From positions 562,501-626,500 of the forward strand of contig CM069770.1 in NCBI GenBank assembly GCA_036169595.1: a stretch of DNA of 64,000 bases. The letters are read 5' to 3'. Source of the DNA: Dictyostelium firmibasis (Eukaryota > Evosea > Eumycetozoa > Dictyosteliales > Dictyosteliaceae). Every line of letters starts with the position of its first letter. Within the stretch, counting starts at the first letter, position 1. Below the pieces are notes generated by a model. That model saw only the letters and a program-made list of their open reading frames with translations. It did not search any database and was not told the DNA's origin. This document shows positions 50 to 26,455 of this stretch, piece by piece. Made by a program: the position numbers and the translations under genes.

Positions 50-367
50 TTACCTACATTGCTTTTTAAGTTGGAATGGTAGTTTTTTACCTTTTTTTAA
101 TTCATGTTGATGTATACTCTTCAAATAAGATGGAATCCAATCTCTAAAATCATCATACTCAACTGTAAATCTTTGATTGTTATATAATTCTTTAAAATTG
201 TCAATTAATTCTTCACCACCTTTACAATACTCTAACTCTTCCATAATCCATTTTTTTATTGGACAAAATTTTTCTAATTTACTTTTTTTACCAACACATG
301 ACTCGATTTTATTTTTATTTTTTATTTTTTTATTACCATTACTGCTATTATTATCATTGTTGAACAT
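50..367 (-). CDS. FNIP-linked N-terminal ORF, copy A (probable exon 1)
   Basis: This 105-codon ORF begins MFNNDNNSS and ends LKKQCR, and it matches the ORF that precedes every FNIP gene in the window. It has an Asn/Ser-rich start, a Lys-rich stretch and then a conserved domain with the segments CPIKKWIMEELEYC, NFKELYNNQ and DDFRDWIPSYLKS. I do not recognise the domain. The stop codon overlaps a GTAGGT donor (coding strand CAAT|GTAGGTAAAC), and bases 1-49 match the start of the intron seen in the other copies. The FNIP exon of this copy should therefore lie beyond the left edge of the window. The variants SNGNKKIKNKN and KKGKKLP separate it from the other copies. The ATG was chosen because all copies share it and an AT-rich leader precedes it. 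A stand-alone small protein remains possible. Confidence 0.65.
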   Translation of the reverse strand: MFNNDNNSSNGNKKIKNKNKIESCVGKKSKLEKFCPIKKWIMEELEYCKGGEELIDNFKELYNNQRFTVEYDDFRDWIPSYLKSIHQHELKKGKKLPFQLKKQCR

Positions 368-1693: not shown

Positions 1694-2011
1694 ATGTTCA
1701 ATAATGATAATAATAGCAGTGATAGTAATAAAAAAAGAAAAAATGAAAATAAAATCGAGTCATGTGTTATTAAAAAAAGTAAATCAGAAAAATTTTGCCC
1801 AATAAAAAAATGGATTATGGAAGAGTTAGAGTATTGCAAAGGTGGTGAAGAACAAATTGACAATTTTAAAGAATTATATAACAATCAAGGATTTACAGTT
1901 GAGTATGATGATTTTAGAGATTGGATTCTATCTTATTTGAAGAGTACACATCAACATGAATTAAAAAAAGGTGAAAAACTACCATTCCAACTTAAAAAGC
2001 AATGTAGGTAA
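1694..2011 (+). CDS. FNIP-linked N-terminal ORF, copy B (probable exon 1)
   Basis: This is a 105-codon ORF of the same family as copies A, C, D and E. It has a basic stretch NKKRKNENK that could be a nuclear signal, then the conserved CPIKKWIMEELEYC...NFKELYNNQ...DDFRDWI domain. The coding sequence can leave the ORF at CAAT|GTAGGT after base 2003. A branch-like ACTAAC lies at about 2243-2248, and the first AG after it is at 2276-2277. Joining 2003 to 2278 gives CAA TAT ACG ATG, which is in frame with the FNIP ORF and would make a 762-residue protein. As a free ORF it would encode a 105-residue protein of unknown function. Confidence 0.7.
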   Translation: MFNNDNNSSDSNKKRKNENKIESCVIKKSKSEKFCPIKKWIMEELEYCKGGEEQIDNFKELYNNQGFTVEYDDFRDWILSYLKSTHQHELKKGEKLPFQLKKQCR

Positions 2012-2189
2012 ACACTCCTTTATTGACACTATTTTGGTGTATTCATAAAACCTTTTTTTTTTCAAATTTTTTATTTTTTTAATTTTTATTTTTTGCACTA
2101 TCCATGAATGCAGCAAATATAACTTGTTGTGTTTCAAAATACTCGAGTTTTTTTTCTAAAAAAAACGGGTACCTGAAATTAAAAATTAA

Positions 2190-2225
<36 letters not shown>

Positions 2226-2282
2226 AGAAAATATTTTTGAAGACTAACACCACATATTAAATTTTAAAAAAATAAAGATACG

Positions 2283-4256
2283 ATGGATGTTAAAATAAAT
2301 AATGGAGGGGATATATTTCTTTTTAGAATATGGAGAAATACTGTTTTAAAAAATATTATTTTACAACATTTTCATTTAAATAAATATTTCAAAATAAGAA
2401 TAAATAAAAAAGATCAATTATTAAATTCAAAATATAGAGATTATATAAAAAGACTAGATTACTTTTCAAATGAAGATATTTATTTAGGTGATATTCCATC
2501 AAGTGTCGAATCATTAACATTTGGTTGTTCTTTTAATCAAGTATTATCAGAAGGATTAATACCATCAAGTGTTAAATCATTAACATTTTATGATGATTTT
2601 AATCAAGTATTATCAGAAGGATCAATACCATCAAGTGTCGAATCATTAACATTTGGTAATGGTTTTAATAAAGTATTATCAGAAGGATCAATACCATCAA
2701 GTGTCGAATCATTAACATTTGGTGATAGTTTTAATCAAGTATTATCAGCAGGATCAATACCATCAAGTGTTAAATCATTAACATTTGGTTATCATTTTAA
2801 TCAAGTATTATTAGCAGAATCAATGCCATCAAGTGTTACATCATTAACATTTGGCAATAGTTTTAATCAAGAATTATCAGCAGGATCAATACCATCAAGT
2901 GTTAAATCATTAACATTTGGTTATGATTTTAATCAAGTATTATCAGAAGGATCAATACCATCAAGTGTTACATCATTAACATTTGGTGATTGTTTTAATC
3001 AAGAATTATCAGCAGGATCAATACCATCAAGTGTTGAATCATTAACATTTGGTGAAGATTTTAATCAAGTATTATCAGCAGAATCAATACCATCAAGTGT
3101 TAAATCATTAACATTTGGTAAACGTTTTAATCAAATACTATCAGCAGGATCAATACCATCAAGTGTTAAATCATTAACATTTGGTCGTAATTTTAATCAA
3201 GTATTATCAGCAGGATCAATACCATCAAGTGTTGAATCATTAACATTTGGTCGTAATTTTAATCAAGTATTATCAGCAGGATCAATACCATCAAGTGTTA
3301 AATCATTAACATTTGGTAGAGATTTTAATCAAGTATTATCAGAAGGATCAATACCATCAAGTGTCGAATCATTAACATTTGGTGATGATTTTAATCAAGT
3401 ATTATCAGAAGGATCAATACCATCAAGTGTTACATCATTAACATTTGGTTATTATTTTAATCAAGTATTATCAGAAGGATCAATACCATCAAGTGTCAAA
3501 TCATTAACATTTGGTTATTATTTAAATCAAGTATTATCATCAGGATCAATACCATCAAGTGTCGAATCATTAACATTTGGTCGTTCTTTTAATCAAGTAT
3601 TATCAGCAGGATCAATACCATCAAGTGTTAAATCATTAACATTTGGTGATTGTTTTAATCAAGTATTATCAGCAGGATCAATACCATCAAGTGTTGAAAC
3701 ATTAACATTTGGTCGTTATTTTGATCAAGTATTATCAGCAGGATTAATACCATCAAGTGTTAAATCATTAACATTTGGTTATCGTTTTAATCAAGTATTA
3801 TCAGAAGGATCAATATCATCAAGTGTTGAATCCTTAACATTTGGTTCAAGTTTTAATCAAGTATTATCAGCAGGATCGATACCATCAAGTGTTACATCAT
3901 TAACATTTGGTGAAGATTTTAATCAAGTATTATCAGCAGGATCAATACCATCAAGTGTTAAATCATTAACATTTGGTGATTATTTTAATCAAGTATTATC
4001 AGCAGGATCAATACCATCGAGTGTTGAAACATTAACATTTGGTGATTGTTTTAATCAAGTATTATCAGCAGAATCAATACCATCGAGTGTTGAATCATTA
4101 ACATTTGGTTATTGTTTTAATCAAGTAATATCAGAAGGATCAATACCATCAAGTGTTAAATCATTAACATTTGGTGAAGATTTTAATCAAGAATTATCAG
4201 CAGGATCAATACCATCAAGTGTTAAATCGCTTAATACAATTAAATGCCAAAAATAG
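2283..4256 (+). CDS. FNIP (IP22) repeat protein, copy B
   Basis: The 657-codon ORF starts with a 70-residue leader containing FLFRIWRN, the W-R-N motif common at the start of Dictyostelium FNIP proteins. From residue 71 there are 26 exact 22-residue FNIP units (IPSSVKSLTFGxxFNQVLSA and two more residues) and a short last unit ending SLNTIKCQK. The unit is 66 bases, and units are nearly identical in DNA except for codons 12-13. FNIP repeats are thought to form a leucine-rich-repeat-like solenoid used in protein binding; the partner is unknown. No signal peptide or membrane segment is visible. The ATG may not be the true start, because the upstream ORF can be spliced to it in frame. It faces copy C, which is convergent. 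Confidence 0.88.
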   Translation: MDVKINNGGDIFLFRIWRNTVLKNIILQHFHLNKYFKIRINKKDQLLNSKYRDYIKRLDYFSNEDIYLGDIPSSVESLTFGCSFNQVLSEGLIPSSVKSLTFYDDFNQVLSEGSIPSSVESLTFGNGFNKVLSEGSIPSSVESLTFGDSFNQVLSAGSIPSSVKSLTFGYHFNQVLLAESMPSSVTSLTFGNSFNQELSAGSIPSSVKSLTFGYDFNQVLSEGSIPSSVTSLTFGDCFNQELSAGSIPSSVESLTFGEDFNQVLSAESIPSSVKSLTFGKRFNQILSAGSIPSSVKSLTFGRNFNQVLSAGSIPSSVESLTFGRNFNQVLSAGSIPSSVKSLTFGRDFNQVLSEGSIPSSVESLTFGDDFNQVLSEGSIPSSVTSLTFGYYFNQVLSEGSIPSSVKSLTFGYYLNQVLSSGSIPSSVESLTFGRSFNQVLSAGSIPSSVKSLTFGDCFNQVLSAGSIPSSVETLTFGRYFDQVLSAGLIPSSVKSLTFGYRFNQVLSEGSISSSVESLTFGSSFNQVLSAGSIPSSVTSLTFGEDFNQVLSAGSIPSSVKSLTFGDYFNQVLSAGSIPSSVETLTFGDCFNQVLSAESIPSSVESLTFGYCFNQVISEGSIPSSVKSLTFGEDFNQELSAGSIPSSVKSLNTIKCQK

Positions 4257-4272
4257 AAAATTTAAACATATT

Positions 4273-4765
4273 TAGGGTGACGCAATATGAAAAATAAGGG
4301 GGTAAAAAATAATAAAAAAAATTTTTATATGAAAAAATAAAAACACTATGACGCAATTTTTTTTTTATTTTTTATTGGTGTGCATTGAAAATTGTTTGTG
4401 GTAATTTATTATTTTAAATGATTTGGTCAGGGAGTACTGTTAGTATTTGTCTTTTGCCCCACCGTTTTCATCCAAAATATGTTTAATATTAACAATAAGA
4501 ACCATTTAATCCAGATTGCCCACTCTTTTCACCATCAACGAGTCATAAACTAAAGTTGAAGGAAGAGGAACTTCTGATTTGATATGCTCGTATTCTGGTA
4601 TACTGGGTTCGAATATCAGTTGAGCAAGGGTTTTCTTTTGTTTTTTTCATCACCATTATAAGGTGAATATTTAATGATTCAGTTTTGTGAGAAAACTGTT
4701 AGTTTCTTAAAAACTGTATTTTAATAAAAACCTTTGTTTGGAAATTTCTTGGTGAAACATTAAAT
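4273..4765 (-). repeat. R1 repeat, copy 1 (diverged)
   Basis: This block of about 490 bases recurs at 9388-9920, 17818-18350 and 20153-20600, with a shorter piece at 5135-5261. One end carries AGGGTGACGCAA and a GGGGGT-containing tract, followed by a second GACGCAA about 70 bases on. This copy is the most diverged. It includes a T-rich arm and the recognisable CATCAACGAGTCATAAACTAAA core. No clear terminal inverted repeats or target duplications were found by eye. It lies directly after the stop codon of FNIP copy B. Confidence 0.7.
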
Positions 4766-6389: not shown

Positions 6390-8429
6390 TTATTGGCATT
6401 TAATTGTATTAAGCGATTTAACACTTGATGGTATTGATCCTGCTGATAATTCTTGATTAAAATTTGAACCAAATGTTAATGATTTAACACTTGATGGTAT
6501 TGATCCTGCTGATAATACTTGATTAAAATGATCACCAAATGTTAATGATTCAACACTTGATGGTATTGATCCTGCTAATAATACTTGATTAAAATAAAAA
6601 CCAAATGTTAATGATTTAACACTTGATGGTATTGATCCTGCTGATAATTCTTGATTAAAACATTTACCAAATGTTAATGATTTAACACTTGATGGTATTG
6701 ATCCTGCTGATAATACTTGATTAAAATGATCACCAAATGTTAATGATGTAACACTTGATGGTATTGATCCTTCTGATAATACTTGATTAAAACAATCACC
6801 AAATGTTAATGATTTAACACTTGATGGTATTGATCCTTCTGATAATACTTGATTAAAATAACCACCAAATGTTAATGATTTAACACTTGATGGTATTGAT
6901 CCTGATGATAATACTTGATTAAAATAACGACCAAATGTTAATGATGTAACACTTGATGGTATTGATCCTGCTGATAATACTTGATTAAAATCTCTACCAA
7001 ATGTTAATGATTTAACACTTGATGGTATTGAATCTGCTGATAATTCTTGAGTAAAATGATTACCAAATGTTAATGATTCGACACTTGATGGTATTGATCC
7101 TGCTGATAATACTCGATTAAAACTTAAACCAAATGTTAATGATTTAACACTTGATGGTATTGATTCTGCTGATAATACTTTATTAAAACGATAACCAAAT
7201 GTTAATGATTCAACACTCGATGGTATTGATCTTGTTGATAATACTTGATTAAAATTTGAACCAAATGTTAATGATTTAACACTTGATGGTATTGATTCTG
7301 CTGATAATTCTTGATTAAAATAATAACCAAATGTTAATGTTTCAACACTTGATGGTATTGATCCTTCTAATAATACTTGATTAAAACTTGAACCAAATGT
7401 TAATGATTTAACACTTGATGGTATTGATCCTGCTGATAATACTTGATTAAAATCATCACCAAATGTTAATGATTTAACACTTGATGGTATTGATCCTGCT
7501 GATAATACTTGATTAAAATGATAACCAAATGTTAATGATTTAACACTTGATGGTATTGAATCTGCTGATAATACTTGATTAAAATCATAACCAAATGTTA
7601 ATGATTTAACACTTGATGGTATTGATCCTGCTGATAATTCTTGATTAAACCAAATACCAAATGTTAATGATTTAACACTTGATGGTATTAATCCTGCTGA
7701 TAGTATTTGATTAAAACGTTTACCAAATGTTAATGATTTAACACTTGATGGTATTGATTCTGCTGATAATACTTGATTAAAACCATTACCAAATGTTAAT
7801 GATTTAACACTTGATGGTATTGATCCTTCTGGTAATACTTGATTAAAATCATCACCAAATGTTAATGATTTAACACTTGATGGTATTGATCCTGCTGATA
7901 GTATTTGATTAAAACGATAACCAAATGTTAATGATTCGACACTTGATGGTATTGATCCTTCTGATAATACTTGATTAAAACCATTACCAAATGTTAATGA
8001 TTCGACACTTGATGGTATTGATCCTTCTGATAATACTTGATTAAAATCACTACCAAATGTTAATAATTTAACACTTGATGGTATTGATCCTGCTGATAAT
8101 ACTTGATTAAAATCTCTACCAAATGTTAATGATTTAACACTTGATGGTATTGATCCTGCTGATAATACTTGATTAAAACTATTACCAAATGTTAATGATT
8201 CGACACTTGATGGAATATCACCTAAATAAATATCTTCATTTGAATAGTAATATAGTTCTTTTATATAATCTCTATATTTTGAATTTAATAATTGATCTTT
8301 TTTATTTATTCTTATTTGGAAATATTTATTTAAATAATAAAGTTGTTGTAAAATAATATTTTTTAAAACAATATTTCTCCATATTCTAAAAAGAAATATA
8401 TCCCCTCCATTATTTATTTTAACATCCAT
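6390..8429 (-). CDS. FNIP (IP22) repeat protein, copy C
   Basis: The 679-codon ORF is the longest FNIP ORF of the window. A 71-residue leader (FLFRIWRNIVLKNIILQQ...) is followed by 27 exact 22-residue units and the shared end SLNTIKCQ. Units differ mostly at the two residues between TFG and FNQ (for example NS, RD, SD, NG, YR, DD, KR, IW). At the 5' side, ATACA lies between an AAATAAAG acceptor and the ATG, matching the frame of a splice from the upstream ORF (exon 2 would start at 8434, and the joined protein would have 784 residues). FNIP proteins are assumed to be intracellular binding scaffolds; the function of this one is unknown. Its neighbours share near-identical flanks, so recombination within the array is likely. 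Confidence 0.88.
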   Translation of the reverse strand: MDVKINNGGDIFLFRIWRNIVLKNIILQQLYYLNKYFQIRINKKDQLLNSKYRDYIKELYYYSNEDIYLGDIPSSVESLTFGNSFNQVLSAGSIPSSVKSLTFGRDFNQVLSAGSIPSSVKLLTFGSDFNQVLSEGSIPSSVESLTFGNGFNQVLSEGSIPSSVESLTFGYRFNQILSAGSIPSSVKSLTFGDDFNQVLPEGSIPSSVKSLTFGNGFNQVLSAESIPSSVKSLTFGKRFNQILSAGLIPSSVKSLTFGIWFNQELSAGSIPSSVKSLTFGYDFNQVLSADSIPSSVKSLTFGYHFNQVLSAGSIPSSVKSLTFGDDFNQVLSAGSIPSSVKSLTFGSSFNQVLLEGSIPSSVETLTFGYYFNQELSAESIPSSVKSLTFGSNFNQVLSTRSIPSSVESLTFGYRFNKVLSAESIPSSVKSLTFGLSFNRVLSAGSIPSSVESLTFGNHFTQELSADSIPSSVKSLTFGRDFNQVLSAGSIPSSVTSLTFGRYFNQVLSSGSIPSSVKSLTFGGYFNQVLSEGSIPSSVKSLTFGDCFNQVLSEGSIPSSVTSLTFGDHFNQVLSAGSIPSSVKSLTFGKCFNQELSAGSIPSSVKSLTFGFYFNQVLLAGSIPSSVESLTFGDHFNQVLSAGSIPSSVKSLTFGSNFNQELSAGSIPSSVKSLNTIKCQ

Positions 8430-8486
8430 TGTATCTTTATTTTTTTAAATTTAATATGTGGTGTTAGTCTTCAAAAACTTTTTTCT

Positions 8487-8524
<38 letters not shown>

Positions 8525-8701
8525 TTAATATTTAATTTCAGGTGCCCGTTTTTTTAGAAAAAAAACTCGAGTATTTTGAAACACAACAAGTTATATTTGC
8601 TGCATTCACGGATAGTGCAAAAAAAAAAAATTAAAAAAATAAAAAATTTTAAAAAAAAAAGGTTTTATAAATACACCAAAATAGTGTTAATAAAGGAGTG
8701 T

Positions 8702-9019
8702 TTACCTACATTGCTTTTTAAGTTGGAATGGTAGTTTTTCACCTTTTTTTAATTCATATTGATGTATACTCTTCAAATAAGATGGAATCCAATCTCTAAA
8801 ATCATCGTACTCAACTGTAAATCTTTGATTGTTATATAATTCTTTAAAATTGTCAATTTGTTCTTCACCACCTTTGCAATACTCTAACTCTTCCATAATC
8901 CATTTTTTTATTGGACAAAATTTTTCTAATTTACTTTTTTTACCAACACATGACTCGATTTTATTTTCATTTTTTCTTTTTTTATTACTATCACTGCTAT
9001 TATTATCATTATTGAACAT
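8702..9019 (-). CDS. FNIP-linked N-terminal ORF, copy C (probable exon 1)
   Basis: A 105-codon ORF nearly identical to that of copy E. It has an acidic/Asn start, the basic NKKRKNENK and GKKSKLEK stretches, and then the conserved W-I-M-E-E-L-E-Y-C domain. The splice model is donor CAAT|GTAGGT at 8710/8709, ACTAAC branch-like motif, first AG at 8436-8435 and exon 2 from 8434, an intron of 275 bases. The leader on the coding strand has ATACATACATATATAATTTATTC before the ATG, and the shared AAGCTTG element lies at 9101-9121. Confidence 0.7.
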   Translation of the reverse strand: MFNNDNNSSDSNKKRKNENKIESCVGKKSKLEKFCPIKKWIMEELEYCKGGEEQIDNFKELYNNQRFTVEYDDFRDWIPSYLKSIHQYELKKGEKLPFQLKKQCR

Positions 9020-9047: not shown

Positions 9048-9387
9048 AAATAAAATGAAAAACGAAAAAAAAATTTAAAAAAAAAAAAAAATTAAAAAAA
9101 AACAAGCTTGCAAGAAAACTCTAAAAAAAAATCAATTAATTCAAAAAAAATAAAATTTTCTACAACAACCCAACAAATTTTTTGAATTTTATTAAAAAAA
9201 AAATAAATATTAATTTTTTATTTTAATTAAAATAATTATAAATTAATTATTTTAATAAAAAATTATATATAAACAATCACCACCACATGTTAAAATAATA
9301 ATATAATAATAATTAAAACTTAAATAATAATTTAACTATTAAAATCACAAAAAAAATAAAAATTGGGTTTGATTCATTTAATGATAA
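9048..9387. promoter_or_regulatory. upstream region of FNIP copy C
   Basis: Contains the shared CAAGCTTGCAAGAAAACTC element (9102-9121) and AT-rich DNA nearly identical to that upstream of copy E (17481-17817). No gene is seen. Confidence 0.45.
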
Positions 9388-9920
9388 AGCAGAAAAATTT
9401 GTTTCCTCAAGAAATTTCCAAACAAAGGTTTTTATCAAAATACAGTTTATAAGAAACAAACAACTTTCTCACAAAACCAAATCATTAAATATTCACCTTA
9501 TAATGGTGATGAAAAAAAGCAAAAGAAAACCCTTGCTCAACTGATTTTCGCATTCCAGTATACCAGAATACTGGCAGATTATATAAAATCAAAAGTTCCT
9601 CTTCCTTCAAATTTAGTTTATGACTCGTTGATGGTGAAAAGAGTGGACAATCTGTATTGTATGGTTCTTATTGTTGATATAAAACATATTTTGGATGAAA
9701 CAGGTGGGACACAAGACACACTAACCAACAGTACTCCCAATTCTATCCACCTGACCAAATCATTTAAAATAAAAAATTACCACAATCAATTTTCAATACA
9801 CACCAATAAAAAATAAAAAAAAAGATTTTAAAAAAATTGTGTCGTAGTGTTTTTATTTTTTCATATAAAATTTTTTTTTATTATTTTTTTACCCCCTTAT
9901 TTTTCATTTTGCGTCACCCT
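9388..9920 (+). repeat. R1 repeat, copy 3, with an ATG-less open frame
   Basis: The best copy of R1 together with 17818-18350. A frame is open from 9388 to 9816 without an ATG in its first 80 codons. It encodes segments such as KKTLAQLIFAFQYTRILADY and KSKVPLPSNLVYDSLMVKRV and ends IHTNKK. Such a frame looks like an old last exon or an element gene fragment. I do not recognise the protein. The 3' end is marked by TTTTGCGTCACCCT. Family and origin are unknown. Confidence 0.6.
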
Positions 9921-9999
9921 AAATAAAAAAAATTAAAAAAAAATTAAAAAAAAAATAAAATAAAAAATTAAATTTCACAAATATCACCAAGAGTTTATT

Positions 10000-10680: not shown

Positions 10681-11256
10681 TTATTGAATTAATGATTCGA
10701 CACTTGATGGTATTAACCCTGCTGATAGTACTTTATTAAAACAAATACCAAATGTTAATGATTTAACACTTGATGGTATTGATCCTGCTGATAATTCTTG
10801 ATTAAAATAATCACCAAATGTTAATGATTTAACACTTGATGGTATTGATCCTGATGATAATACTTGATTAAAACCATTACCAAATTTTAATGATTCAACA
10901 CTTGATGGTATTGATTCTGCTGATAATACTTGATTAAAATCTCTACCAAATGTTAATGATTTAACACTTGATGGTATTAATCCTGCTGATAATACTTGAT
11001 TAAAACTTCTACCAAATGTTAATGATTCGACACTTGATGGAATATCACCTAAATAAATATCTTCATTTGAATAGTAATATAGTTCTTTTATATAATCTCT
11101 ATATTTTGAATTTAATAATTGATCTTTTTTATTTATTCTTATTTGGAAATATTTATTTAAATAATAAAGTTGTTGTAAAATAATATTTTTTAAAACAGTA
11201 TTTCTCCATATTCTAAAAAGAAATATATCCCCTCCATTATTTATTTTAACATTCAT
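10681..11256 (-). CDS. FNIP (IP22) repeat protein, copy D, shortened
   Basis: The 191-codon ORF has the usual 71-residue leader (with N instead of D at residue 2), then only 5 full 22-residue units and a broken sixth ending SVESLIQ. The last codons are supplied by DNA that elsewhere belongs to R3 and its neighbour (TTCATATTTATTTATTGAAT, compare 13760 and 19130). The gene has therefore lost its 3' part through a rearrangement inside a repeat unit, and the present stop lies just past the joint. Its first five units match those of copy F almost exactly. Whether so short a solenoid is functional is unclear. Confidence 0.75.
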   Translation of the reverse strand: MNVKINNGGDIFLFRIWRNTVLKNIILQQLYYLNKYFQIRINKKDQLLNSKYRDYIKELYYYSNEDIYLGDIPSSVESLTFGRSFNQVLSAGLIPSSVKSLTFGRDFNQVLSAESIPSSVESLKFGNGFNQVLSSGSIPSSVKSLTFGDYFNQELSAGSIPSSVKSLTFGICFNKVLSAGLIPSSVESLIQ

Positions 11257-11513
11257 CGTATCTTTATTTTTTTAAAATTTAATATGTGGTGTTAGTCTTT
11301 AAAAACTTTTTTCTAAATTTTTTTTTTTTTTTTTTTTAATTTTTAATTTCAGGTACCCGTTTTTTTAGAAAAAAAACTCAAGTATTTTGAAACACAACAA
11401 GTTATATTTGCTGCATTCACGGATAGTGCAAAAAAAAAAAATATAAAAAAATAAAAAATTTGAAAAAAAAAAGGTTTTATAAATACACCAAAATAGTGTC
11501 AATAAAGGAGTGT

Positions 11514-11831
11514 TTACCTACATTGCTTTTTAAGTTGGAATGGTAGTTTTTCGCCTTTTTTTGATTCATATTGATGTATACTCTTCAAATAAGATGGAAT
11601 CCAATCTCTATAATCATCATACTCAACTGTAAATCTTTGATTGTTATATAATTCTTTAAAATTGTCAATTAGTTCTTCACCACCTTTGCAATACTCTAAC
11701 TCTTCCATAATCCATTTTTTTAATGGACAAAATTTTTCTGATTTACTTTTTTTACCAACACATGACTCGATTTTATTTTCATTTTTTCTTTTTTTATTAC
11801 TATCACTGCTATTATTATCATTATTGAACAT
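11514..11831 (-). CDS. FNIP-linked N-terminal ORF, copy D (probable exon 1)
   Basis: This is a 105-codon ORF of the family. The frame is open further upstream (to 11906), but the added residues are poly-Phe translated from T runs, so the ATG shared with the other copies (11831) is preferred. Differences from the other copies include CPLKKWIM, DDYRDWIP and ESKKGEK. The CAAT|GTAGGT donor and the ATACG joint of exon 2 are intact. Unlike the other copies it lacks the AAGCTTG element upstream; the AATTAATTCAAAA sequence follows directly. Confidence 0.68.
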   Translation of the reverse strand: MFNNDNNSSDSNKKRKNENKIESCVGKKSKSEKFCPLKKWIMEELEYCKGGEELIDNFKELYNNQRFTVEYDDYRDWIPSYLKSIHQYESKKGEKLPFQLKKQCR

Positions 11832-14898: not shown

Positions 14899-16872
14899 TT
14901 ATTGGCATTTAATTGTATTAAGCGATTTAACACTTGATGGTATTGATCCTGCTGATAATTCTTGATTAAAATTTTCACCAAATGTTAATGATTTAACACT
15001 TGATGGTATTGAATCTGCTGATAATTCTTGATTAAAACAATCACCAAATGTTAATGATTCAACACTTGATGGTATTGATCCTGCTAATAATACTTGATTA
15101 AAATCTCCACCAAATGTTAATGATTTAACACTTGATGGTATTGATCCTTCTGATAATACTTGATTAAAATAATTACCAAATGTTAATGATTTAACACTTG
15201 ATGGTATTGATCCTGCTGATAATTCTTGATTAAAACAATCACCAAATGTTAATGATTCAACACTTGATGGTATTGATCCTGCTAATAATACTTGATTAAA
15301 AAAATAACCAAATGTTAATGATTTAACACTTGATGGTATTGATCCTGCTGATAATACTTGATTAAAACTATCACCAAATGTTAATGATTTAACACTTGAT
15401 GGTATTGATCCTGCTGATAATTCTTGATTAAAACAATCACTAAATGTTAATGATTCAACACTTGATGGTATTGATCCTGCTGATAATACTTGATTAAAAC
15501 TTGAACCAAATGTTAATGATGTAACACTTGATGGTATTGATCCTTCTGATAATACTTGATTAAAATCATAACCAAATGTTAATGATTTAACACTTGATGG
15601 TATTGATTCTGCTGATAATACTTGATTAAAATCTCCACCAAATGTTAATGATTCAACACTTGATGGTATTGATCCTGATGATAATACTTGATTAAAATAA
15701 CGACCAAATGTTAATGATGTAACACTTGATGGTATTAATCCTGTTGATAACTCTTGATTAAAACAATCAGCAAATATTAATGATTCAACACTTGATGGTA
15801 TTAATCCTGCTGATAATACTTGACTAAAATAATAACCAAATGTTAATGATTTAACACTTGATGGTATTGATCCTGCTGATAATACTTGATTAAAATAATA
15901 ACCAAATGTTAATGATTCGACACTTGATGGTATTGATCCTGATGATAATACTTGATTAAAATATTCACCAAATGTTAATGACTTAACACTTGATGGTATT
16001 GATCCTGCTGATAATACTTGATTAAAACTTGAACCAAATGTTAATGATTTAACACTTGATGGTATTGATCCTGCTGATAATATTTGATTAAAATAATAAC
16101 CAAATGTTAATGATTCAACACTTGATGGTATTGATCCTGCTGATAATACTTGATTAAAACAATAACCAAATGTTAATGATTTAACACTTGATGGTATTGA
16201 TCCTGCTGATAATACTTGATTAAAATCATTACCAAATGTTAATGATTTAACACTTGATGGTATTGATCCTGATGATAATACTTGATTAAAATAATAACCA
16301 AATGTTAATGATTTAACACTTGATGGTATTGATCCTGCTGATAATACTTGATTAAAATAATAACCAAATGTTAATGATTTAACACTTAATGGTATTGATC
16401 CTGCTAATAATACTTGATTAAAATCTTCACCAAATGTTAATGATTTAACACTTGATGGTATTGATTCTGCTGATAATACTTGATTAAAATAATCACCAAA
16501 TGTTAATGATTTAACACTTGATGGTATTGATCCTTCTGATAATACTTGATTAAATTCATCATAAAATGTTAATGATTTAACACTTGATGGTATTAATCCT
16601 GCTGATAATACTTGATTAAAAAAACAACCAAATGTTAATGATTCGACACTTGATGGAATATCACCTAAATAAATTTCTTCATTTGAAAAGTAATCTAGTT
16701 TTTTTATATAATCTCTATATTTTGAATTTAATAATTGTTCTTTTTTATTTATTCTTATTTGGAAATATTTATTTAAATGAAAAAGTTGTTGTAAAATAAT
16801 ATTTTTTAAAACAGTATTTCTCCATATTCTAAAAAGAAATATATCCCCTCCATTATTTATTTTAACATCCAT
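14899..16872 (-). CDS. FNIP (IP22) repeat protein, copy E
   Basis: The 657-codon ORF has a 71-residue leader (FLFRIWRNTVLKNIILQQLF), 26 exact 22-residue FNIP units and the shared end SLNTIKCQ. The two residues after TFG vary (FF, EF, YF, ED, YY, ND, YC, SS, GD and others), while the rest of the unit is nearly fixed. It resembles copy C in flanks but differs in the order of unit variants, so the units have been shuffled or converted since duplication. ATACG precedes the ATG after an AAATAAAG acceptor, in frame with the upstream ORF. The role is unknown beyond a likely binding scaffold. Confidence 0.88.
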   Translation of the reverse strand: MDVKINNGGDIFLFRIWRNTVLKNIILQQLFHLNKYFQIRINKKEQLLNSKYRDYIKKLDYFSNEEIYLGDIPSSVESLTFGCFFNQVLSAGLIPSSVKSLTFYDEFNQVLSEGSIPSSVKSLTFGDYFNQVLSAESIPSSVKSLTFGEDFNQVLLAGSIPLSVKSLTFGYYFNQVLSAGSIPSSVKSLTFGYYFNQVLSSGSIPSSVKSLTFGNDFNQVLSAGSIPSSVKSLTFGYCFNQVLSAGSIPSSVESLTFGYYFNQILSAGSIPSSVKSLTFGSSFNQVLSAGSIPSSVKSLTFGEYFNQVLSSGSIPSSVESLTFGYYFNQVLSAGSIPSSVKSLTFGYYFSQVLSAGLIPSSVESLIFADCFNQELSTGLIPSSVTSLTFGRYFNQVLSSGSIPSSVESLTFGGDFNQVLSAESIPSSVKSLTFGYDFNQVLSEGSIPSSVTSLTFGSSFNQVLSAGSIPSSVESLTFSDCFNQELSAGSIPSSVKSLTFGDSFNQVLSAGSIPSSVKSLTFGYFFNQVLLAGSIPSSVESLTFGDCFNQELSAGSIPSSVKSLTFGNYFNQVLSEGSIPSSVKSLTFGGDFNQVLLAGSIPSSVESLTFGDCFNQELSADSIPSSVKSLTFGENFNQELSAGSIPSSVKSLNTIKCQ

Positions 16873-16933
16873 CGTATCTTTATTTTTTTAAATTTAATAT
16901 GTGGGTGGTGTTAGTCTTCAAAAACTTTTTTCT

Positions 16934-16969
<36 letters not shown>

Positions 16970-17134
16970 TTAATTTTTAATTTCAGGTACCCGTTTTTAT
17001 TGAAACACAACAAGTTATATTTGCTGCATTCATCGACAATTCTCTGCAAAAAAAAAAAATTATAAAAAAAATAAAAAATTTGAAAAAAAAAAAGGTTTTA
17101 TAAATACACCAAAATAGTGTAAATAAAGGAGTGT

Positions 17135-17452
17135 TTACCTACATTGCTTTTTAAGTTGGAATGGTAGTTTTTCACCTTTTTTTAATTCATATTGATGTAT
17201 ACTCTTCAAATAAGATGGAATCCAATCTCTAAAATCATCGTACTCAACTGTAAATCTTTGATTGTTATATAATTCTTTAAAATTGTCAATTTGTTCTTCA
17301 CCACCTTTGCAATACTCTAACTCTTCCATAATCCATTTTTTTATTGGACAAAATTTTTCTAATTTACTTTTTTTGCCAACACATGACTCGATTTTATTTT
17401 CATTTTTTCTTTTTTTATTACTATCACTGCTATTATTATCATTATTGAACAT
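17135..17452 (-). CDS. FNIP-linked N-terminal ORF, copy E (probable exon 1)
   Basis: This 105-codon ORF encodes the same protein as copy C apart from silent changes. The frame is open upstream to 17545, but that part is poly-Phe from T runs, so the family ATG at 17452 is chosen. The CAAT|GTAGGT donor is intact. The intron differs from the other copies by a small change near the acceptor (GACTAACACCACCCACATAT) and by loss of the AAAAAACTCGAGTATTTTG stretch. The AAGCTTG element is at 17533-17553. Confidence 0.7.
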   Translation of the reverse strand: MFNNDNNSSDSNKKRKNENKIESCVGKKSKLEKFCPIKKWIMEELEYCKGGEEQIDNFKELYNNQRFTVEYDDFRDWIPSYLKSIHQYELKKGEKLPFQLKKQCR

Positions 17453-17480: not shown

Positions 17481-17817
17481 AAATAAAATGAAAAACGAAA
17501 AAAAAATTTAAAAAAAAAAAAAATTAAAAAAAAACAAGCTTGCAAGAAAACTCTAAAAAAAAATCAATTAATTCAAAAAAAATAAAATTTTCTACAATAA
17601 CCCAAATTTTTTGAATTTTATTAAAAAAAAAAATAAATATTAATTTTTTATTTTAATTAAAATAATTATAAATTAATTATTTTAATAAAAAATTATATAT
17701 AAACAATCACCACCACATGTTAAAATAATAATATAATAATAATTAAAACTTAAATAATAATATAACAATTAAAATCACAAAAAAAATAAAAATTGGGTTT
17801 GGTTCATTTAATGATAA
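17481..17817. promoter_or_regulatory. upstream region of FNIP copy E
   Basis: Nearly identical to 9048-9387 upstream of copy C, including the CAAGCTTGCAAGAAAACTC element. No gene is seen. Confidence 0.45.
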
Positions 17818-18350
17818 AGCAGAAAAATTTGTTTCATCAAGAAATTTCCAAACAAAGGTTTTTATCAAAATACAGTTTATAAGAAACAAACAACTTTCTC
17901 ACAAAACCAAATCATTAAATATTCACCTTATAATGGTGATGAAAAAAAGCAAAAGAAAACCCTTGCTCAACTGATTTTCGCATTCCAGTATACCAGAATA
18001 CTGGCAGATTATATAAAATCAAAAGTTCCTCTTCCTTCAAATTTAGTTTATGACTCGTTGATGGTGAAAAGAGTGGACAATCTGTATTCTATGGTTCTTA
18101 TTGTTAATATTAAACATATTTTGGATGAAACAGGTGGGACACAAGACACACTAACCAACAGTACTCCCAATTCTATCCACCTGACCAAATCATTTAAAAT
18201 AAAAAATTACCACAATCAATTTTCAATGCACACCAATAAAAAATAAAAAAAAAGATTTTAAAAAAATTGCGTCGTAGTGTTTTTATTTTTTCATATAAAA
18301 TTTTTTTTTATTATTTTTTTACCCCCTTATTTTCCATTTTGTGTCACCCT
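17818..18350 (+). repeat. R1 repeat, copy 4
   Basis: Close to identical with 9388-9920, as part of the C/E segmental duplication. It has the same long ATG-less frame, ending MHTNKK at 18246. The right end reads GTGTCACCCT in place of GCGTCACCCT. Confidence 0.65.
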
Positions 18351-18439
18351 AAATAAAAAAAATTAAAAAAAAATTAAAAAAAAAATAAAATAAAAAATTA
18401 AATTTCACAAATATCACCAAGAGTTTATTATTTTTATTT

Positions 18440-20152: not shown

Positions 20153-20600
20153 GGGTGACACAAAATGAAAAATAAGGGGGTAAAAAAAAATAATAAAAAA
20201 AATTTTTATATGAAAAAATAAAAACACTACGACGCAATTTTTTTAAAATCTTTTTTTTTATTTTTTATTGGTGTGCATTGGAAATTGATTGTGGTAATTT
20301 TTTATTTTAAATGATTTGGTCAGGTGGATAGAATTGGGAGTACTTTTGAATTGTGTCTTGTGTCCAACCTGTTTCATCAAAAATATGTTTAATATTAACA
20401 ATAAGAACCATACAATACAGATTGTCCATTCTTTTCACCATCAACGAGTCATAAACTAAATTTGAAGGAAGAGGAACTTTTGATTTTATATAATCTGCCA
20501 GTATTCTGGTTTACTGGAATGCGAAAATCAGTTGAGCAAGGGTTTTCTTTTGCTTTTTTTCATCACCATTATAAGGTGAATATTTAATGATTTTTTTTTT
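20153..20600 (-). repeat. R1 repeat, copy 5
   Basis: In opposite orientation to copies 3 and 4. It starts AGGGTGACACAAAATGAAAA and runs to CCATTATAAGGTGAATATTT, lacking the last 100 bases. It follows directly on the R4 block. Confidence 0.65.
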
Positions 20601-20703: not shown

Positions 20704-21552
20704 TTATTTCGGAGGGATATTAAGCGATTTAACACTTGATGGTATTGATCCTGCTGATAAATCTTGATTAAAATATTCACCAAATGTTAATGATTCAACA
20801 CTTGATGGTATTGATCCTGCTGATAATACTTGATTAAAACTATCACCAAATGTTAATGATTTAACACTTGATGGTATTGATCCTGATGATAATACTTGAT
20901 TAAAATAATAACCAAATGTTAATGATTTAACACTTGATGGTATTGATCCTGCTGATAATTCTTGATTAAAATAAATACCAAATGCTAATGATTCGACACT
21001 TGATGGTATTGATTTTGCTGATAATACTTTATTAAAACAAATACCAAATGTTAATGATTTAACACTTGATGGTATTGATCCTGCTGATAATACTTGATTA
21101 AAATAATCACCAAATGTTAATGATTTAACACTTGATGGTATTGATCCTGATGATAATACTTGATTAAAACCATTACCAAATGTTAATGATTCAACACTTG
21201 ATGGTATTGATCCTGCTGATAATACTTGATTAAAATCTCTACCAAATGTTAATGATTTAACACTTGATGGTATTAATCCTGCTGATAATACTTGATTAAA
21301 ACTTCTACCAAATGTTAATGATTCGACACTTGATGGAATATCACCTAAATAAATATCTTCATTTGAATAGTAATATAGTTCTTTTATATAATCTCTATAT
21401 TTTGAATTTAATAATTGATCTTTTTTATTTATTCTTATTTGGAAATATTTATTTAAATAATAAAGTTGTTGTAAAATAATATTTTTTAAAACAGTATTTC
21501 TCCATATTCTAAAAAGAAATATATCCCCTCCATTATTTATTTTAACATCCAT
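20704..21552 (-). CDS. FNIP (IP22) repeat protein, copy F, shortened
   Basis: The 282-codon ORF has a 71-residue leader, 9 exact 22-residue FNIP units and a broken tenth ending SLNIPPK. The shared SLNTIKCQ tail is replaced by unrelated sequence after SLN, so the gene end was rebuilt by a rearrangement at about 20720. The first five units match copy D apart from a few changes, which shows that D and F derive from the same parent. The acceptor joint AAAG|ATACAATG is intact. A binding role is inferred from the family only. Confidence 0.8.
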   Translation of the reverse strand: MDVKINNGGDIFLFRIWRNTVLKNIILQQLYYLNKYFQIRINKKDQLLNSKYRDYIKELYYYSNEDIYLGDIPSSVESLTFGRSFNQVLSAGLIPSSVKSLTFGRDFNQVLSAGSIPSSVESLTFGNGFNQVLSSGSIPSSVKSLTFGDYFNQVLSAGSIPSSVKSLTFGICFNKVLSAKSIPSSVESLAFGIYFNQELSAGSIPSSVKSLTFGYYFNQVLSSGSIPSSVKSLTFGDSFNQVLSAGSIPSSVESLTFGEYFNQDLSAGSIPSSVKSLNIPPK

Positions 21553-21609
21553 TGTATCTTTATTTTTTTAAAATTTAATATGTGGTGTTAGTCTTTAAAA
21601 ATATTTTCT

Positions 21610-21647
<38 letters not shown>

Positions 21648-21825
21648 TTAATTTTTAATTTCAGGTACCCGTTTTTTTAGAAAAAAAACTCGAGTATTTT
21701 GAAACACAACAAGTTATATTTGCTGCATTCACGGATAGTGCAAAAAAAAAAAATATAAAAAAATAAAAAATTTGAAAAAAAAAAGGTTTTATAAATACAC
21801 CAAAATAGTGTAAATAAAGGAGTGT

Positions 21826-22107
21826 TTACCTACATTGCTTTTTAAGTTGGAATGGTAGTTTTTCACCTTTTTTTAATTCATATTGATGTGTACTCTTCAA
21901 ATAAGATGGAATCCAATCTCTAAAATCATCATACTCAACTGTAAATCTTTGATTGTTATATAATTCTTTAAAATTGTCAATTTGTTCTTCACCACCTTTG
22001 CAATACTCTAGCTTTTGCATAATCCATTCTCTTATTGGATAAAATTTTTCTGATAGTAAAAAAAGTAAATCATTACTATCACTGCTATTATTATCATTAT
22101 TGAACAT
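21826..22107 (-). CDS. FNIP-linked N-terminal ORF, copy F (probable exon 1, variant form)
   Basis: This 93-codon ORF keeps the start MFNNDNNSSDSN and the conserved domain (here YPIREWIMQKLEYCKGG...). The Lys-rich NKKRKNENKIESCVGKKSK stretch is replaced by DLLFLL. At DNA level this looks like a deletion of about 36 bases joined to an inversion of about 16 bases (GATTTACTTTTTTTAC against GTAAAAAAAGTAAATC in copy D). The frame is kept, but the basic, possibly nuclear-targeting stretch is lost. The CAAT|GTAGGT donor is intact. Confidence 0.68.
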   Translation of the reverse strand: MFNNDNNSSDSNDLLFLLSEKFYPIREWIMQKLEYCKGGEEQIDNFKELYNNQRFTVEYDDFRDWIPSYLKSTHQYELKKGEKLPFQLKKQCR

Positions 22108-23994: not shown

Positions 23995-25902
23995 TTATTG
24001 GCATTTAATTGTATTAAGCGATTTAACACTTGATGGTATTGATCTTGCTGATAATTCTTGATTAAAACAATGACCAAACGTTAATGATTTAACACTTGAT
24101 GGTATTGATCCTGCTGATAATTCTTGATTAAAATAAGAACCAAATGTTAATGATTTAACACTTGATGGTATTGATCCTACTGATAAATCTTGATTAAAAC
24201 GAATACCAAATGTTAATGATTCAACACTTGATGGTATTGATCCTGCTGATAATACTTGATTAAAACGATCACCAAATGTTAATGATGTAACACTTGATGG
24301 TATTGATCCTGCTGATAATACTTGATTAAAACAATGACCAAATGTTAATGATTCGACACTTGATGGTATTGATCCTGCTGATAATACTTGATTAAAATCA
24401 TAACCAAATGTTAATGATTTAACACTTGATGGTATTGATCCTGCTGATAATACTTGATTAAAACCATCACCAAATGTTAATGATTTAACACTTGATGGTA
24501 TTAATCCTGCTGATAACTCTTGATTAAAACAATCAGCAAATGTTAATGATTTAACACTTGATGGTATTGATCCTACTGATAATACTTGACTAAAATCACT
24601 ACCAAATGTTAATGATTTAACACTTGATGGTATTGATTCTGCTGATAATACTTGATTAAAATCATGACCAAATGTTAATGATTTAACACTTGATGGTATT
24701 GATTCTGCTGATAATACTTGATTAAAATAATAACCAAATGCTAATGATTTAACACTTGATGGTATTGATCCTGCTGATAGTACTTGATTAAAATCATAAC
24801 CAAATACTAATGATTTAACACTTGATGGTATTGATCCTGCTGATAATACTTGATTAAAACAAATACCAAATGTTAATGTTTCAACACTTGATGGTATTGA
24901 TCCTTCTGATAATTCTTGATTAAAACTATCGCCAAATGTTAATAATTTAACATTTGATGGTATTGATCCTGCTGATAACACTTGATTAAAATCATAACCA
25001 AATGTTAATGATTTAACACTTGATGGTATTGATCCTGCTGATAATACTTGATTAAAATTATCACCAAATGTTAATGATTTAACACTTGATGGTATTAATC
25101 CTGCTGATAATACTTGATTAAAATTATCACCAAATGTTAATGATTCAACATTTGATGGTATTGATCCTGCTGATAATACTTGATTAAAATCATCGCCAAA
25201 TGTTAATGATTCGACATTTGATGGTATTGATCCTTCTGATAATACTTGATTAAAATCTCTACCAAATGTTAATGATTTAACACTTGATGGTATTGATCCT
25301 GCTGATAATACTTGATTAAAACGAATACCAAATGTTAATGATTCAACACTTGATGGTATTGATCCTGATGATAATACTTGATTAAAATTATTACCAAATG
25401 TTAATGATTTAACACTTGATGGTATTGATCCTGCTGGTAATACTTGATTAAAACAAATACCAAATGTTAATGATTTAACACTTGATGGTATTGATCCTGC
25501 TGATAATACTTGATTAAAACCATTACCAAATGTTAATGATTTAACACTTGATGGTATTGATCTTTCTGATAATACTTGATTAAAATCATCATAAAATGTT
25601 AATGATTTAACACTTGATGGTATTAATCCTGCTGATAATACTTGATTAAAAAAACAACCAAATGTTAATGATTCGACACTCGATGGAATATCACCTAAAT
25701 AAATATCTTCATTTGAAAAGTAATATAGTTCTTTTATATAATCTCTATATTTTGAATTTAATAATTGATCTTTTTTATTTATTCTTATTTGGAAATATTT
25801 ATTTAAATGAAAAAGTTGTTGTAAAATAATATTTTTTAAAACAATATTTCTCCATATTCTAAAAAGAAATATATCCTCTCCATTATTTATTTTAACATCC
25901 AT
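23995..25902 (-). CDS. FNIP (IP22) repeat protein, copy G
   Basis: The 635-codon ORF has a 71-residue leader (MDVKINNGEDIFLFRIWRN), 25 exact 22-residue FNIP units and the shared SLNTIKCQ end. It has more off-consensus changes than the other copies (SNVE, SNVK, KLLTFG, LVFG, LAFG). The acceptor side (AAAG|ATACAATG) is intact, but the upstream exon-like ORF has a frameshift. If the two-exon model holds, the gene can only be read from this ATG or is broken. Function is unknown beyond the repeat class. Confidence 0.85.
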   Translation of the reverse strand: MDVKINNGEDIFLFRIWRNIVLKNIILQQLFHLNKYFQIRINKKDQLLNSKYRDYIKELYYFSNEDIYLGDIPSSVESLTFGCFFNQVLSAGLIPSSVKSLTFYDDFNQVLSERSIPSSVKSLTFGNGFNQVLSAGSIPSSVKSLTFGICFNQVLPAGSIPSSVKSLTFGNNFNQVLSSGSIPSSVESLTFGIRFNQVLSAGSIPSSVKSLTFGRDFNQVLSEGSIPSNVESLTFGDDFNQVLSAGSIPSNVESLTFGDNFNQVLSAGLIPSSVKSLTFGDNFNQVLSAGSIPSSVKSLTFGYDFNQVLSAGSIPSNVKLLTFGDSFNQELSEGSIPSSVETLTFGICFNQVLSAGSIPSSVKSLVFGYDFNQVLSAGSIPSSVKSLAFGYYFNQVLSAESIPSSVKSLTFGHDFNQVLSAESIPSSVKSLTFGSDFSQVLSVGSIPSSVKSLTFADCFNQELSAGLIPSSVKSLTFGDGFNQVLSAGSIPSSVKSLTFGYDFNQVLSAGSIPSSVESLTFGHCFNQVLSAGSIPSSVTSLTFGDRFNQVLSAGSIPSSVESLTFGIRFNQDLSVGSIPSSVKSLTFGSYFNQELSAGSIPSSVKSLTFGHCFNQELSARSIPSSVKSLNTIKCQ

Positions 25903-25960
25903 TGTATCTTTATTTTTTTAAAATTTAATATGTGGTGTTAGTCTTTAAAAACTTTTTTCT

Positions 25961-26174: not shown

Positions 26175-26455
26175 TTACCTACATTGCTTTTTAAGTTGGA
26201 ATGGTAGTTTTTCACCTTTTTTTAATTCATATTGATGTGTACTCTTCAAATAAGATGGAATCCAACTCTAAAATCATCATACTCAACTGTAAATCTTTGA
26301 TTGTTATATAATTCTTTAAAATTGTCAATTTGTTCTTCACCACCTTTGCAATACTCTAACTTTTGCATAATCCATTCTCTTATTGGATAAAATTTTTCTG
26401 ATAGTAAAAAAAGTAAATCATTACTATCACTGCTATTATTATCATTATTGAACAT
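26175..26455 (-). pseudogene. FNIP-linked N-terminal ORF, copy G, frameshifted
   Basis: The homologous region has 281 bases against 282 in copy F. One base is missing near 26266 (TCCAACTCTA against TCCAATCTCTA), so the protein ends early as DDFRVGFHLI after 69 codons. The rest is nearly identical to copy F, including the DLLFLL variant. The donor CAAT|GTAGGT is still present, so the break is recent, or it is a sequencing error. Confidence 0.7.

Follow-up and report, generated by a model that had tools for sequence, protein, structure and literature searches.

The array of FNIP repeat genes in the window (the whole stretch of Dictyostelium firmibasis DNA analysed here, 64,000 nucleotides, C6:562501-626500) raises the question of where these genes begin. 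In copy A, for instance, a small open reading frame (ORF) at 1694-2011 stands before an FNIP ORF at 2283-4256, both as placed in the initial annotation, which read such pairs as the two exons of a single gene. Our analysis suggests that this reading is very probably correct: an intron running from T|GTAGGT to AAATAAAG would be removed, and the product would be an amino-terminal extension fused to an FNIP protein. This correction of the gene structure is probably sound and not a surprise; the deposited annotation already has one clear example (copy C).

Six complete pairs lie in the window (copies A to F), with exon 1 starting at 1694, 9019, 11831, 17452, 22107 and 26455, respectively. Copy A is on the plus strand and comprises exon 1, coding for an extension and ending in CAAT, at 1694..2003 (ORF and junction check), an inferred intron of 274 nucleotides (GTAGGT...CTAAC...AAATAAAG, the junction being as in the deposited copy C product) at 2004..2277, and exon 2, with the FNIP amino-terminal segment and the FNIP/FGxxFN repeats, at 2278..4256 (Pfam and joined frame). 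The other copies are on the minus strand. In copies B, D and E the joined frame places exon 1 at 8710..9019, 17143..17452 and 21834..22107, inferred introns of 275, 265 and 276 nucleotides at 8435..8709, 16878..17142 and 21558..21833, and FNIP exons, also recognized as ORFs, at 6390..8434, 14899..16877 and 20704..21557. In copy C, exon 1 (11522..11831), which codes for the first part of the deposited protein RB653_009869, and exon 2 with a short FNIP array (10681..11261) are defined by protein identity, and the 260-nucleotide intron between them (11262..11521) is implied by that protein. Alignment shows the basic stretch KKRK...KKSK of exon 1 swapped in frame for DLLFLL in copy E, a replacement also found in copy F. 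Exon 1 of copy F (26183..26455, by alignment) has a one-base deletion that shifts the frame, and its FNIP part (ORF at 23995..25907) is open from an ATG at 25902. A seventh small ORF (367-50) runs past the window edge; it belongs to a further copy (L015) with exon 1 at 58..367 on the minus strand and most of the intron and the FNIP part to the left of the window, and, followed further, it has an open exon 1 together with the leader of the other copies.

Copies A to E, five of the six complete pairs, are joined in frame and without internal stops via T|GTAGGT...CTAAC...AAATAAAG|, giving products of 762, 784, 296, 762 and 375 amino acids with the junction peptide LKKQYTM(D/N)VK. The initial claim that joining is always in frame holds for the junction in all six window copies, that of copy F being seen by eye, but not for the full joined frame of copy F, which is lost because of the deletion inside its exon 1. 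The splice signals that had been described are all there. In copies A to E the inferred introns have GT-AG ends, with AAG as the acceptor, and a branch-site motif with no other AG between it and the acceptor: CTAAC lies 33-37 nucleotides before the acceptor end, and the first AG downstream of it sits within AAATAAAG. The TAA stop of the small ORF occupies intron positions 6-8, so that donor and stop codon overlap. WCTAAY is given in PMC2483917 as the commonest two-fold degenerate branch-site motif in D. discoideum (31.89% of 17,300 introns).

Two deposited D. firmibasis proteins bear directly on this structure. RB653_009869 (P0002) matches in every residue the product of copy C when spliced by the rule initially proposed, and it is the one protein returned by a search with the joined query (96% identical over the whole 172-residue region). 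A search with the small ORF only returned RB653_009938 (P0001; 90 amino acids), which is identical to exon 1 of the paralogue L033 (C6:768344), 195 kb away. Its last residues are KKQ, which places its end two codons short of the genomic stop and at the same donor as in the window copies; in L033, T|GTAGGT is the only GT donor at which an exon would end with KKQ. The identity of RB653_009869 with spliced copy C and the shared donor of RB653_009938 make the two-exon structure very likely. The 90-residue protein may be a 3'-partial model, and the fusion in RB653_009869 could in principle be the choice of a gene predictor. The annotation is described in PMC11193728 as a MAKER annotation with the D. 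discoideum proteome and STAR-mapped, Trinity-assembled mRNA-seq, followed by manual checking, and 9,934 of the 10,564 coding genes are given there as passing the authors' expression cut-off. As our searches gave no exon 1 relatives outside D. firmibasis, both models are unlikely to stem from D. discoideum homology alone, and transcript evidence is thus likely to lie behind them. No fused proteins of the other window copies were returned by the joined-query search (lengths of 264-840 amino acids); repeat masking of near-identical repeats or multi-mapping reads could account for so few deposited proteins. In the open-licence literature we found no paper treating both FNIP and D. firmibasis, and the matches listed there for 'RB653' looked unrelated by title.

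In the genome as a whole (31,455,843 bases in 12 contigs), the pieces matching exon 1 number at least 31 at the protein level and at least 35 at the DNA level, 30 and 33 of which, respectively, are on C6; the FNIP amino terminus has 85 matches. An exon 1 start together with the donor CAATGTAGGTA occurs in 21 of the 60 FNIP loci that were examined with 1,600 bases upstream, and the exon 1 frame is kept in 20 of these 21. The sequence CAATGTAGGTAAACACT has 21 exact occurrences, all on C6, and three further sites with one or two mismatches (six sites within two mismatches for its reversed control). Among the 46 closest copies (L009-L053 and L056), exon 1 is intact in 19, damaged in seven (L013, L018, L024, L026, L030, L031 and L037) and absent from 20, in the sense that the 1,600 bases upstream contain none in matching orientation; L054, L055 and L057-L068, in which the FNIP start is truncated or the leader does not align, were not counted.

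The copies that lack exon 1 remove two arguments for splicing and leave another. The initial annotation had held that the five bases before the FNIP ATG have no reason to keep phase if non-coding, and had pointed to the shared acceptor. However, AAAG followed by five nucleotides and ATG is found in 19 of 19 intact copies, seven of seven damaged copies and 19 of 20 copies without exon 1, those on chromosome 1 included. Acceptor and phase thus belong to a family-wide FNIP leader and provide no argument for splicing. AAATAAAGATACRATGGA occurs 50 times with at most one mismatch, chromosome 1 copies being among these, compared with once for the reversed control; with AAATAAAGATACRATG common to paralogues without exon 1, conservation of phase and acceptor was rejected as splicing evidence. 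In addition, because the copies are paralogues, the in-frame junction is one inherited event with a chance of about 1 in 3, not (1/3)^6. The branch-like motif CTAAY appears to go with exon 1: between -45 and -26 it is present in 18 of 19 intact and all seven damaged copies and in none of the 20 copies without exon 1, one of which (L039) has CTAAT at -47, just outside this range. The two-exon structure is supported by this distribution (25 of 26 copies with an intact or damaged exon 1, near -39, versus 0 of 20, which is not a count of independent events since the copies are related) and by the exon 1 indels, seven of eight of which keep the frame.

These indels come from the 21 loci in which both the start of exon 1 and the donor are present. 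Seven of the eight events are multiples of three when the 36-nucleotide replacement in copies E and F is treated as one event, and six of nine if the aligner's two gaps there (25 and 11 nucleotides) are counted apart; 19 of the loci were chosen for an open frame, which introduces some bias, and L013, with a frameshift, and L037, with a 126-nucleotide in-frame deletion, were added regardless. The substitutions are neutral in pattern, with 19 synonymous among 90 variants in exon 1 (18.4 expected), eight among 47 in the FNIP amino terminus (8.7 expected) and Nei-Gojobori pN/pS values of 0.69 and 1.22, respectively. The substitutions in intact copies reveal no amino-acid constraint on exon 1, in a test that does not discriminate, as the clearly coding FNIP amino terminus is also without a synonymous excess. 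Nonsense variants number three in the true frame of exon 1 versus 7.6 expected (P 0.04, for 19 copies that had been picked for an open frame), and eight in each of the two wrong frames versus 5.1 and 6.0 expected; the three 'stop' variants were judged against the consensus codon and are probably aligned multi-base differences. The neutral pattern suggests that exon 1, if translated, is under no more than weak or recent constraint, or else diversifies.

A reading that is compatible with two-exon genes, and to which we give somewhat less than an even chance, is that many copies are decaying, unexpressed duplicates and that splicing is relevant only in a few expressed copies. The neutral substitutions in exon 1 and in the FNIP amino terminus fit such decay, as do the frameshift in copy F, the truncated copies and the return of just two deposited proteins, although repeat masking and multi-mapping reads could explain the latter, and the frame is kept in 20 of 21 exon 1 copies, together with long FNIP frames. 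The FNIP frames are open in all seven damaged copies (285-660 amino acids) and in 19 of the 20 copies without exon 1, which indicates that exon 1 may not be indispensable; in six of the damaged copies, where the exon 1 start survives, three to five other GT-AG joins to the same acceptor would be in frame. A tree of the FNIP amino terminus (47 rows, 21 of 42 inner branches open) is too weak to separate a single gain of exon 1 from frequent loss. At least one loss is likely, since L021, which lacks exon 1, is a well-supported sister of L020, which has it.

The donor was compared with those of five introns in other genes of the window, worked out by protein continuity; the genes themselves we take, from sequence features, to be polyketide-synthase-like and NADH-dehydrogenase-like. 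Three tandem genes at 32796-60016, polyketide-synthase-like by such features, each have an intron of 67-84 nucleotides just after a GGVN motif, and these introns are among the controls. The five control donors (TTG|GTATGT, TAG|GTATGC, TGG|GTATGT, AAG|GTATGT and GTG|GTAAGT) all have G at -1 and A or T at +4, and T|GTAGGT has T and G, respectively. The acceptors are AAG in two of the five and TAG in three, and CTAAY is found in only one control intron, 42 nucleotides before an A-rich AAG acceptor. The FNIP acceptor is therefore ordinary and the donor is unusual at -1 and +4; a neighbouring donor four bases on, AG|GTAAAC, would put the FNIP part out of frame. The inferred introns are also long (260-276 nucleotides) and have an AT content of 80.0-81.5%, compared with a median of 103 nucleotides and 89% AT for D. 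discoideum introns (PMC2483917, Table 2) and 94 and 90% AT in two other introns of the window. Against the five window introns and D. discoideum, then, the T|GTAGGT introns are not typical of the genus in donor, length or composition. This weakens the intron reading without excluding an intron, as these features are typical, not obligatory, and a long, GC-rich intron would fit a former intergenic stretch that was recruited as an intron.

The region around the donor stands out in another way. The segment from the last 40 nucleotides of exon 1 to intron position +50 (8660-8750 in the window, and its equivalents) is the most conserved part of exon 1 and the gap, with a diversity of 0.00-0.04 over about 80-90 bp, although parts of the FNIP amino terminus are lower still. 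In the 19 intact copies, 21 nucleotides of the intron are invariant, more than a donor requires. Gene conversion is a possible cause of this strong conservation.

For the two-exon genes, the following course of expression may be envisaged. Transcription would start in T-rich sequence ahead of the small ORF, and a spliceosomal intron of about 260-276 nucleotides would be removed, from T|GTAGGT, which overlaps the apparent stop of the small ORF, to AAATAAAG|ATAC. The motifs suggest CTAAC as the branch site, and the junction itself is implied by the deposited protein. The predicted product has about 90-103 residues of extension, then Y-T, the FNIP amino-terminal segment and the FGxxFN leucine-rich repeats, Y-T being encoded by what is probably the 5' leader of the sister genes. 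The extension appears to have been amplified within one D. firmibasis subfamily on chromosome 6, and the other FNIP paralogues, which share the leader, probably start at the FNIP ATG. The repeat array may bind partner proteins, and the basic, lineage-specific extension might conceivably modify targeting or the choice of partner. As for origin, a chimeric gene may have arisen in situ, which we suggest tentatively and consider possible at best. In this scenario an FNIP gene came to have a small-protein gene as its upstream neighbour, splicing bypassed the stop codon of the latter and made two codons of the FNIP 5' leader coding, and amplification produced some 20 copies of the fusion on a single chromosome, alternative acceptors still being able to give the small protein alone.

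Such alternative acceptors form a reading of their own, in which splicing to an AG further upstream creates T|AA or T|AG, so that translation ends directly after KKQ and the small protein is made alone, and the AAATAAAG acceptor gives the fusion. RB653_009938 does end at KKQ, as acceptors at -81, -79 and -73 in L033 would give, and one upstream AG gives an immediate stop in each of the four other copies tested (L010, L011, L017 and L036). However, such sites can occur by chance in A-rich DNA, they precede CTAAC, and RB653_009938 may simply be 3'-partial, so that we regard this reading as rather unlikely. In our view it is improbable that the small-protein gene and the FNIP gene are separate neighbours, the latter with its own promoter in the gap and the deposited fusion a prediction artefact: the gap has TATAAAACC followed by T-runs, conserved in the copies with exon 1, which we take to resemble a Dictyostelium core promoter, the leader before the ATG is shared by FNIP copies that lack exon 1, 19 of 20 of which have long open frames, a piece from the middle of the gap lies ahead of the FNIP ATG in L043, where there is no small ORF, and amino-acid constraint on exon 1 is not detectable, but the deposited copy C product is fused, the L033 protein ends at an internal donor and not at the genomic stop, and CTAAY in branch position is present with exon 1 and absent without it, a point weakened by the relatedness of the copies.

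The two-exon reading gives the FNIP protein an extension of a kind that our searches do not recognize. The alignment used (A2) has 16 members, namely P0001 and 15 of the 19 intact copies (exon ORFs), with L010, L012, L014 and L033 omitted as near-duplicates. In these 16 members no Pfam or NCBIfam family scores above its cut-off for exon 1; the lowest E-value is 0.0012 for DUF7834, in one member (19.2 bits versus a cut-off of 27). DUF7834 gave no matches in the genome and likewise none in 14 control genomes, which therefore does not demonstrate the absence of this family. Exon 1 matches only unnamed families in PHROGs (E 0.0058 or worse), has nothing better than E 0.33 among PDB sequences and has no match in the plasmid collection. 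The initial annotation had suggested searching the extension for other fusions; protein searches gave the deposited copy C fusion and RB653_009938, with no relatives outside D. firmibasis among proteins of up to 184 or of 264-840 amino acids, one of these searches scoring only the 7,987 candidates that shared most words. AlphaFold predicts three to four helices for exon 1 with low confidence (mean pLDDT 59 modelled alone; about 31-50 per block within the whole P0002 model). The stretch KKRK...KKSK we take to resemble a bipartite nuclear signal. The extension is a new architecture in the collections searched, as had been proposed. The word 'domain' goes further than the evidence, since neither a confident fold nor amino-acid constraint is established, and we classify the extension as a lineage-specific variant of the known FNIP repeat family.

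The FNIP part is well recognized. Exon 2 of copy A has 18 FNIP stretches (Pfam PF05725, E 1.5e-254), and PF05725 scores 822.5 bits in copy A and 233.4 bits in copy C, against a cut-off of 21 for FNIP repeats. Foldseek with the whole P0002 model, in which the repeats mostly have a pLDDT of 80-96, finds 6nyr (two chains) and 7zal at E 9e-10 to 5.4e-5. The FNIP part is thus modelled as an FGxxFN leucine-rich repeat like CroV588. For an F-box at the FNIP amino terminus there is no Pfam match at E <= 1; the model has one long helix at residues 113-141 (pLDDT 61-82).

The D. firmibasis copies can be compared with known FNIP proteins. They share their repeats with the PF05725 and CroV588 proteins, the copy C product model matching 6nyr_A (CroV588) at E 9e-10, but add about 103 amino-terminal residues of no known family, probably joined by splicing. 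Fusions reported in PMC9525666 include an F-box-FNIP protein in Megavirus baoshan and a kinase-linked FNIP protein in Polysphondylium pallidum. These likewise combine an FNIP array with another unit in one protein, whereas the D. firmibasis unit is neither F-box nor kinase by Pfam and is limited, as far as found, to one species. FNIP-type leucine-rich repeats are also listed among the substrate-receptor-like domains of Dictyostelium Skp1 interactors (PMC9485057); the D. firmibasis copies have such arrays too, but no F-box recognised by Pfam.

For this large family of dictyostelid repeat proteins, which seems thinly annotated in D. firmibasis, our analysis corrects the gene structure. With about 20 closely related copies and 20 paralogues that lack exon 1, the gain, variation and loss of a coding exon can be observed. 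FNIP protein functions are described as little known in PMC9525666, and a lineage-specific extension with a basic stretch that is missing from some copies offers a handle on their localisation.

Several individual loci show other arrangements. L054 (contig C5) has a damaged exon 1 and CTAAC; it was considered as a processed, intron-free copy and rejected as such, since the exon 1 match stops at base 144 and CTAAC remains, which indicates a deletion and not a splice junction. In L028 (C6:493013), the T-rich and CATTTCATTTTAT sequence that normally stands before exon 1 directly precedes the FNIP leader (by eye), a natural promoter fusion, as if exon 1 and the intron had been deleted. Upstream of the FNIP ATG, L043 (C6:1330091) has 41 bp from the middle of the intron and an FNIP coding fragment (by eye), and it has lost the acceptor AG (AAATAAAA), which fits the lack of an exon 1 that would require one. 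L040 and L042, both counted as without exon 1, have ATGTTC a short way before the FNIP ATG; a 41-residue frame in L042, which opens with MFNEFYGKSTFKIFCPNS, faintly resembles a shortened exon 1 (a weak 28-nucleotide match, E 0.006). Upstream of L034 (C6:367528), a fragment of exon 1 measuring 130 bp is found on the opposite strand (C6:367029-367158), showing that fragments of the unit have been inverted, and at C6:760881-761129 a donor-side exon 1 fragment with the intron start has no FNIP amino-terminus match nearby.

Within the window, a complete FNIP leader (AAATAAAGATACAATGGA) followed by an eight-codon ORF and a stop lies at 1308-1347, just upstream of copy A, and is a relic start without an FNIP array. 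A dispersed repeat flanks FNIP copies at 4430-4680, 9360-9930, 17780-18380 and 20160-20600 (by eye); where it lies upstream of other copies it contains a short frame, MVKRVDNL..., and it possibly represents the remains of a mobile element that helped to spread them.
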